The notes below the pieces were generated by a model. The model saw only the letters and a list, made by a program, of their open reading frames with translations. It searched no databases and was not told the DNA's origin. Of a DNA stretch of 64,000 nucleotides, positions 39,597 through 41,662 are shown piece after piece; the first letter of the stretch is position 1, and each line of letters opens with the position of its first letter. This stretch comes from Anaerolineales bacterium (GTDB lineage: Bacteria > Chloroflexota > Anaerolineae > Anaerolineales > UBA11858): assembly GCA_016785015.1 (NCBI GenBank), contig JADHTJ010000009.1, positions 1 to 64,000 of the forward strand, given 5' to 3'. The translations under genes and the position numbers were made by a program.

Positions 39597-39996
39597 GGGG
39601 ATGACAGGCTTCGACGGAGGAGGCTGATCCCAAACTGCGAGCCGAGAGGCGCCGACCTCGAAAAATCAGCGCAAACCTTTAAGTGCCAACCGCACTGACT
39701 ATGCTGCTCTTCCTCTTGCTGCCTAAGCAGTAAGCGCATGAGCGCAAACTGACCCAACGGGTCACGTCCTTCTTTCACCGCCCTCTAGCCGGGGATAGAA
39801 TGGACGACAAAAAGCTAGAGTGCGGCACATGACGTCGCTAAGTGTGCCTAAGCGGGGCTTTCGGGCCCCAGCGGCTGGTTGAGTGGGATCTTTCGTCGTT
39901 TGTAGGCCGCTCAATGAGGAGAAACAAGCGACTACGCTCGTAGATGTTCGCGAATCTAATCTTTCGGACGCGGGTTCGATTCCCGCCATCTCCACC
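39597..39996 (+). ncRNA. ssrA: Transfer-messenger RNA (tmRNA)
   Basis: The one-piece tmRNA rescues stalled ribosomes. The tRNA-like ends are clear: the 5' acceptor GGGGATG (39597-39603) pairs with CATCTCC (39987-39993), and a T-arm GCGGGTTCGATTCCCGC precedes it. The 3' CCA is not encoded (ACCT). The tag reading frame begins at GCC 39685 and gives ANRTDYAALPLAA before TAA 39724-39726, ending in a typical LAA-like degron. A terminator hairpin follows. Confidence 0.95.
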
Positions 39997-40034: not shown

Positions 40035-40157
40035 TATGTTGAAATCCACACGTGAGTTTTACAATCCCATTACATTATTATTAATACTCATTTCATGAAC
40101 GCCTTATCATAAGGGAAAATAATGCGTTGAGGATCCTATTCTCAGGTAGGTGATGAT

Positions 40158-40973
40158 ATGAAAAACAATATATTTCTTGGAATAATCACACTCTTCATTC
40201 TTTCAGCATGCGCGATGTTACCCCCACCCGGTGAAGGTGTAGAGCAATCCGACGAATACCCTCCGGCAAACCAGATAGTTCAGGAACAAGAAAATGCAGA
40301 AAAGGATCCTGTGAAGCAGGAAATGCCCGAATCGACTGCAACTCAGCAGTCAACATTTCAGCTACCTACGGCAACACTCGTTTCAGAAGTCTCTGAGGTT
40401 GTCACTCCCGTTCTCTCAACTGAATTAGCTCGAGGTTGCGAAAGAGGTGGGCCAGGCGCTCAACCCCCTAAAGATGGCCAACTAGCAATCGATTTCACAC
40501 TTTTGGATGTTGCTGAAAATTCATACACATTATCTGAGCTGCTCTCAGAAAAACCCGTCGTGTTGATATTCGGCTCCTTTACCTGACCGCCATTTCGGGG
40601 GCAGTGTGCTCCCAACAATGATCTTTATACTCTATACAGCGATCAGGTGCATTTTCTAACCATCTATTCCAAAGAGGCACACCCAATCTCTGAACGGCCG
40701 GGAAAATTCACTTACGACGCAGAGGTCAATCCCATTGACCAGCCAACAACTTATCAGCAACGAGTTGCACTTGCAGCCAAAACCATTGCTGAAGAAGAAA
40801 TTATAATGCTCGTTTTGGTGGATGAAATCGACAACCCCCTTTGGTGCAGCTATGGTCGACTCCCTAATAACGCTTACTTGATCGGTCAGGATGGTTTTGT
40901 GAATTATTATCAAAAATGGAATGATGCTGCAGATATGGAAGTCGCCATCCAAAGATACTTTATCGAGCATTAG
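40158..40973 (+). CDS. Deiodinase-like selenoprotein, lipoprotein form (UGA = selenocysteine)
   Basis: Read through TGA 40584-40586, this is a continuous 271-residue protein with Sec143. The signal peptide ends in lipobox LSAC (Cys18), so the protein is envelope-anchored. The active site VLIFGSFT-U-PPFRGQ closely matches the GS-x-TUPPF site of iodothyronine deiodinases, and FLTIYSKEAHPISE matches the following conserved strand with EAHP. Ten bases after the UGA is a 6-bp stem GGGGGC/GCUCCC with an AGUGU loop (40597-40613), suited to a bacterial SECIS. The thioredoxin-fold domain starts about residue 110. Bacterial members are uncharacterised; thiol or peroxide reduction is more likely than deiodination. 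Its 3' end overlaps the AlkD gene by 4 bp. Confidence 0.88.
40597..40613 (+). promoter_or_regulatory. SECIS-like hairpin of the deiodinase-like selenoprotein
   Basis: The stem GGGGGC (40597-40602)/GCTCCC (40608-40613) has loop AGTGT. The loop lies 19 nt from the first base of the UGA, within the normal range for bacterial SECIS elements, and contains a GU. Confidence 0.75.
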
Positions 40974-41662
40974 CCACCCGCTTTCGTTCGCAACCTTTCC
41001 TGAACCTTATCACTTTCCAACTCTCTGATAGCATTGCTTGCAATCCAACGAGCAGTCTTATCATCAATCTCTTTAATTTGCTTGGCGGCCTGAATAGCGG
41101 CCTGGTTGAGATTCAGGTTGCGCTTGCCGATATTTCGCAGAGCCCAATTGACAGCTTTCTTGACAAAGTTACGCGGGTCGGTAGCTTCGCGTTGAATCAA
41201 AGGGAAATACTGAATGAAAGCATCGTCACCAGCTTCCTTATCGTGCCAGGCCAAACACGCGATCAGGGCGAAGGCGGTGCGCTTGACGAACTCCTCTTCC
41301 CGCTGCGACCACTCAATGATTTTTTTCTGCACAATGGCAGACTTCTCAAAAAGATTTATACATGTTTGATCGCATACGTCCCACGAATTGATCTCCACAA
41401 CCCAGGCTTCCATCTGCTCTTCGGTGAGTTTTTCAGGCTCCCCGATCATTCCAGCAACAATGCGCGCTTCCAGAATTCCTGTATCCCAAAGTTTCAATGC
41501 CAATTCATGATCCTTGCCCACTTCTTTTGCAATTTTGCGCATATCGGGCACCGATACACCCAATCGATGCTCAGTTACAATGCCAAATTTTGCCATGCCT
41601 TCCAATTGATCAGTTTTGGCCTTTGATTTCAACAATTCAAGAACTTCTTCTACAGTTGCCAT
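40970..41662 (-). CDS. AlkD-like DNA alkylation repair protein
   Basis: A 230-residue all-helical HEAT-like protein of the AlkD (DNA glycosylase) family: KFGIVTEHRLGVSVPDMRKIA, SWDVCDQTCINLFEK (WD-x-x-D region) and FVKKAVNWALRNIGKRN. It would remove 3- or 7-alkylated bases. It is convergent with the selenoprotein gene. A full MITE-1 copy lies in its upstream region. Confidence 0.85.
   Translation of the reverse strand: MATVEEVLELLKSKAKTDQLEGMAKFGIVTEHRLGVSVPDMRKIAKEVGKDHELALKLWDTGILEARIVAGMIGEPEKLTEEQMEAWVVEINSWDVCDQTCINLFEKSAIVQKKIIEWSQREEEFVKRTAFALIACLAWHDKEAGDDAFIQYFPLIQREATDPRNFVKKAVNWALRNIGKRNLNLNQAAIQAAKQIKEIDDKTARWIASNAIRELESDKVQERLRTKAGG

Follow-up and report, generated by a model that had tools for sequence, protein, structure and literature searches.

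A selenoprotein gene with a single in-frame UGA

The window, a stretch of 64,000 nucleotides from a contig of an Anaerolineales genome, carries on its forward strand a gene of 271 codons that is continuous when a single TGA is read as selenocysteine (Sec). Its component open reading frames, 40158–40586 (starting at ATG, 142 aa) and 40647–40973, share one frame, the sole in-frame stop is the TGA at codon 143, exactly the Sec codon, and the 3′ half past the TGA is open and conserved up to the TAG. This is the arrangement that the first-pass annotation had described, and the active-site join it proposed was found in place: the join reads GSFT-U-PPF (residues 139–146), EAHP follows at residues 173–176, and the spacing from Sec to His is identical to that of the deiodinases Dio2 and Dio3. 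With the TGA read as Sec, the protein is made up of three parts, a lipoprotein signal, a linker predicted to be disordered and a C-terminal deiodinase-family domain. The features of the locus are:

40148–40153, + strand: probable ribosome-binding site AGGTGA, 4 nt 5′ of the ATG (from sequence and inference)
40158–40973, + strand: selenoprotein gene, 271 aa, single in-frame UGA, stop TAG at 40971–40973 (sequence, PF00837)
40158–40211, + strand: predicted lipoprotein signal peptide MKNNIFLGIITLFILSA with lipobox LSA-C (sequence, hydrophobic-segment and lipobox scan, two relatives alike)
40212–40454, + strand: linker, residues 19–99, rich in Pro, Ser, Thr and Glu and holding Cys93 (AlphaFold2 block with pLDDT 44–58)
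40455–40970, + strand: deiodinase-family thioredoxin-fold domain, residues 100–271 (PF00837, NF038285, AlphaFold2)
40584–40586, + strand: UGA read as selenocysteine, Sec143 (Sec or Cys in the aligned column of relatives and of Dio2 and Dio3)
40597–40613, + strand: bacterial SECIS (bSECIS) hairpin, 7-bp stem GGGGGCA/UGCUCCC, apical loop GUG
40674–40685, + strand: EAHP motif (Glu173, His175), counterpart of Dio2 Glu160 and His162, with E and H invariant in the family alignment
40842–40856, + strand: WCSYG motif (Trp229–Gly233) with Cys230, specific to the lipoprotein clade (WCTYG in relatives L195 and L196)

A tmRNA gene (39597–39996, + strand, tag ANRTDYAALPLAA) lies directly 5′ of the selenoprotein gene, and an AlkD-like DNA alkylation repair gene (40970–41662, − strand) converges on it, the 3′ ends overlapping by a few bases. 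The neighbours (tmRNA, a sigma factor, DegV, AlkD-like DNA repair and a LysE exporter) form no conserved neighbourhood pointing to a substrate.

The full-length protein matches Pfam T4_deiodinase (PF00837) with 49.4 bits (E 4.7e-13) against a cut-off of 27, so the Sec reading is not a product of chance. The gene is a real selenoprotein gene that is probably unannotated, and an annotation gap is likely, in which the standard reading of stop codons splits or drops the gene.

Selenocysteine machinery in the genome

The genome is a metagenome-assembled genome, 81% complete and in 243 contigs. It encodes selA (E 5e-131), selB (E 2.8e-89), selD (E 1.8e-106) and a tRNA-Sec with anticodon tca (UCA), so that the lack of machinery named beforehand as fatal to the Sec reading does not apply. 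The selD gene (L013, 1501–2430, − strand) also encodes a selenoprotein, with an in-frame TGA in the motif CSGU. The same genome has a second deiodinase-like Sec gene, on contig C5; its TGA is at the same place (GSFTUPPY...EAHPVDGWW) and its product is predicted from sequence to be cytosolic.

A third PF00837 match in the genome (L003, contig G000:C200, 1477–1776, − strand) covers a C-terminal half without the Sec/Cys site and lies between two ORFs of 4Fe-4S type (reductive-dehalogenase/QueG-like), one of which reaches the contig end. It is a C-terminal fragment that lacks the active site, left by a broken gene or a rearrangement.

The SECIS hairpin in the window gene and in the family

When the 45 nt after the UGA are folded, a hairpin starts 10 nt past the UGA with all seven pairs formed (stem +10 to +16 and +20 to +26), and it has the form of a bSECIS, namely a hairpin soon after the UGA with G in a small apical loop. 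By dinucleotide shuffling the hairpin is unremarkable (z −0.5), but coding constraint on much of the sequence makes this score uninformative, and we therefore used synonymous-codon shuffles. An equally good fold arose in 1 of 150 such shuffles for the rule-based hairpin and in 82 of 3000 and 52 of 3000 for two codon usages, and all seven pairs at the register of the window gene arose in 71 of 20000. In a scan of the gene, synonymous shuffles picked out one other stretch as strong as the SECIS (z about −3), at 40311–40373 in the linker, with the signal around 40311–40329; the fold of the window gene alone is therefore only suggestive.

Comparison across the family is more telling. At least six of the seven pairs form at the window register in 65 of 146 distinct family sequences, compared with a mean of 7.7 and a maximum of 15 in 200 synonymous shuffles, and sliding one side of the stem by 1–3 bases reduces the sequences with a paired stem from 65 to 0–12. 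Each stem pair shows several pair types across the family, and nearly all loops start with G (GGU, GUC, GGC). Another 26 sequences use a second register, with a 5-nt loop, and the remaining 55 use neither of the two, so the window gene has the commonest SECIS form of its family. L195 and L196 also have hairpins, which start at +10 and have a 5-nt loop, but synonymous shuffles fold equally well. An Rfam scan near the gene returned the tmRNA as its only significant match. The hairpin with a GU-containing loop reported earlier at this distance from the UGA is thereby borne out by register and covariation. Taken as sequence evidence, codon 143 would almost certainly be decoded as Sec by SelA, SelB, SelD and tRNA-Sec with the aid of this hairpin.

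Deiodinase-family domain and active site

Animal deiodinases activate thyroid hormone and take halogen from thyroxine. Placement of the window protein in their family, PF00837, stands: among all PDB sequences searched, the only clear matches were mouse Dio3 (E 1.5e-9) and mouse Dio2 (E 1.3e-6). For the NCBIfam model NF038285 (deiodinase_rel) the protein scores 111.6 bits against a cut-off of 250, matching only positions 172–322 of the 347 in the model, and a single-domain paralogue (L001) likewise falls short with 171.9 bits. AlphaFold2 models most of residues 101–271 with pLDDT >90, and the best fold matches are Dio2 (Z 21.9, 170 residues aligned, 2.9 Å) and Dio3 (Z 20.6), followed by ResA (Z 18.4), AhpE (Z 17.6) and Etrx2 (Z 16.5).

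The relay residues proposed for Dio2 are Ser127, Thr129, Tyr157, Glu160, His162 and His182, with Trp167 in the substrate loop (PMC11592359). The first five correspond to Ser140, Thr142, Tyr170, Glu173 and His175 of the window protein and are invariant or nearly so in the family, as are the columns GSxT-(U/C)-P and the downstream E-A-H, which the window protein matches with GSFTUPPF and EAHP. In the alignment, Dio2 Trp167 is replaced by Arg180 and the relay His182 by Pro196, Pro being the commonest residue of bacterial relatives at the latter position. Both accessory cysteines of Dio1 and Dio3 are replaced as well, the proximal by Phe141 and the distal by Thr209, in a column where 71% of the bacterial family have Cys; the proximal one is also absent from Dio2 (PMC11592359). 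With the loop Trp, the second relay His and the two accessory cysteines all missing, the name deiodinase denotes ancestry and not activity.

The peroxiredoxin motif is P-x3-(T/S)-x2-C. Read from the sequence, Ser140 fits this motif and Leu136 takes the place of its Pro.

Lipoprotein signal and a probably exported clade

The N-terminus MKNNIFLGIITLFILSAC has the basic n-region, h-region and lipobox ([LVI][ASTVI][GAS]C) of a bacterial lipoprotein. The lipobox noted in the first pass, L-S-A-C at residues 15–18 with Cys18 as the expected lipidated residue, recurs in the same arrangement in two relatives, and from it we infer export: the protein would very probably carry its lipid on Cys18, with a linker of about 80 residues, predicted to be disordered, tethering the domain to the outside of the cytoplasmic membrane.

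The two relatives, L195 and L196, belong to another family of the same order. Like the window gene, both have the lipobox, the TGA, a linker rich in Pro and Thr that contains one Cys, and the motif WC[ST]YGxxPN[SN]A[YF]LIxQDG. In a 146-row tree without them the window protein sits on a very long branch; once both are added the placement resolves, and a branch with SH-aLRT 97.9 separates the three proteins from the rest. When 27 genomes from the family of L195 were searched with a profile, no further member of the lipoprotein clade emerged. Cys230 is a feature of the clade, its alignment column not being one of Cys across the family at large. Cys150 of the window protein is not shared and is encoded within the SECIS hairpin (CAG TGT GCT CCC), and may for these reasons be a by-product of the RNA constraint. 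In a crude hydropathy scan, the other sampled Chloroflexota relatives had no recognisable signal, and members from Acidobacteriota, Planctomycetota and Verrucomicrobiota mostly had a hydrophobic N-terminal segment.

Relatives, spread and earlier reports

The search for relatives covered 400 genomes from the phylum, 396 from the class and 400 from the order. The homologous codon is TGA in 148 of the 154 relatives examined, most of which were collected through a TGA pattern; in searches that did not select for TGA, almost all full-length relatives likewise contain one internal TGA and continue past it, and homologues ending at the TGA, which would have spoken for an ordinary stop, were not seen. 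The DNA pattern GSxT-UGA-P-x-[FY]...EAH[PA] returned at least 118 stretches from Acidobacteriota, Planctomycetota, Chloroflexota, Pseudomonadota and others, a set that, being selected for TGA, shows the spread of the family and not its Sec/Cys ratio. At the Sec position, a few Chloroflexota relatives carry Cys, Asp, Ala, Gly or Ser; four of them (L029, L037, L038 and L039), with Asp, Ala, Gly or Ser, are presumably non-redox homologues on account of this replacement. A UxxC subfamily (TUPYCxMA; L033, L040–L044, L065–L075) is common in Chloroflexota, many of its members having a SECIS in the same register.

The window protein is diverged, with about 39% identity or less to any relative. Among the matches listed from genomes of the same genus, size and range are those of the cytosolic paralogue, so the lipoprotein selenoprotein gene appears patchy in distribution. 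A phage collection encoded no relative, and plasmids gave one match, annotated as deiodinase-like.

Bacterial deiodinase-like selenoproteins with a bacterial SECIS were reported in 2005 from the Sargasso Sea, with a redox function suggested and expected to differ from thyroid-hormone deiodination (PMC1088965). They were described again in 2008 from GOS data (PMC2398784), and in 2026 were counted among the bacterial selenoproteins with functions largely open (PMC13188914). Our literature search, with subscription journals mostly outside it, found no reported activity for any of them. The novelty implied by the first-pass annotation was accordingly overstated: the family has been known since 2005, an NCBIfam model exists, and many members from Acidobacteriota and Planctomycetota start with a membrane or signal segment. 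What appears to be undescribed is the three-member lipoprotein clade of one Chloroflexota order with changed helper cysteines; its combination of a retained Ser/Thr/Tyr/Glu/His network, loss of the loop Trp and of both animal accessory cysteines, and a WC[ST]YG Cys of its own looks new.

Proposed role and alternative explanations

Overall, the locus is best explained, with somewhat better than even confidence, as encoding an exported, lipid-anchored PF00837 selenoprotein with an extracytoplasmic redox role. The product is most likely an extracytoplasmic selenolate oxidoreductase rather than a thyroid-hormone enzyme; that its substrates belong to peroxide or thiol-redox defence is an evenly balanced proposition. 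We prefer peroxide or thiol chemistry to dehalogenation, as a matter of judgement, because the Trp of the thyronine loop and the accessory cysteines are gone and the acid/base network is kept. In the proposed mechanism, the Sec143 selenolate, placed by Ser140, Thr142, Tyr170, Glu173 and His175, would attack a small oxidised or electrophilic substrate and then be re-reduced by thiols. As the usual distal Cys is absent, re-reduction would probably proceed via Cys230, Cys93 or an outside thiol donor, which might be fed by a CcdA/DsbD-type membrane protein; the genome encodes a protein of this type, which could serve as electron source.

A true extracytoplasmic reductive dehalogenase, whose selenolate would strip the halogen off extracellular iodinated or brominated aromatics, would account for the proximity to Dio2 and Dio3 in sequence and fold and for the retention of five of the six proposed relay residues, and at another locus of the genome a truncated deiodinase-like gene fragment adjoins ferredoxin-type ORFs. 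The replacement of Trp167 by Arg180 and of His182 by Pro196 and the loss of both accessory cysteines nevertheless make it unlikely, the near neighbours tested include no halogen or aromatic genes, and another redox role was expected by the authors of 2005 (PMC1088965). A more novel reading, in which the clade is a surface selenoenzyme with a new redox layout, Sec143 is resolved by the WC[ST]YG Cys instead of the distal Cys, and substrates outside the cell are reductively dehalogenated or detoxified, is a long shot; if true, it would mean deiodinase-type halogen chemistry in bacteria, independent of thyroid hormone.

Slightly less probable than a dehalogenase is a surface thiol-disulfide partner that passes electrons to oxidised exported proteins in the manner of the lipoprotein thioredoxins ResA and Etrx2. 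ResA is the next best fold after the deiodinases, Etrx2 is an exposed lipoprotein thioredoxin of related fold, and the DsbD/CcdA-type protein could supply the electrons, but the active site TUPP lacks the CxxC pair of both, and family and active-site network are of deiodinase type. A very improbable reading is that the gene, descended from a Cys or Sec ancestor, has decayed into a pseudogene and that its TGA is a normal stop, arose by mutation or reflects a sequencing error: the long branch and the loss of several family-typical residues would fit decay, yet the only stop is the Sec codon with an open, conserved 3′ half up to TAG, the SECIS is fully paired (7/7) at the register common in the family, and lipobox, linker, TGA and WC[ST]YG recur in two relatives from another family. 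The window offers a clean case that combines full Sec machinery, a covariation-backed SECIS and a clade with differing accessory cysteines, which makes the function of bacterial relatives of thyroid-hormone enzymes directly testable.

Comparison with known systems

The bacterial deiodinase-like selenoproteins have the same domain and Sec position and a bSECIS directly after the UGA (PMC1088965, PMC2398784); relative to them, the window protein adds a lipobox, a long disordered linker and the WC[ST]YG Cys, lacks the distal Cys, and remains below the NF038285 cut-off. With animal Dio1–3 it shares the thioredoxin fold, GSxT-U-PPF, EAHP, the Ser/Thr/Tyr/Glu/His network and some form of N-terminal membrane attachment, which would be a lipid anchor here and is a transmembrane helix there; it differs in its bacterial SECIS and in having Arg180, Pro196, Phe141 and Thr209 for Trp167, His182, the proximal Cys and the distal Cys. 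The 1-Cys peroxiredoxins (AhpE) and Bcp have a related fold in which the nucleophile starts the same helix, whereas the window protein has Leu136 for the Pro of the peroxiredoxin motif, and its EAHP and the loop behind it are of deiodinase type. ResA-like proteins and pneumococcal Etrx2 are also membrane-bound thioredoxin folds outside the membrane, but these use CxxC, whereas the window protein presents a lone Sec followed by Pro-Pro.
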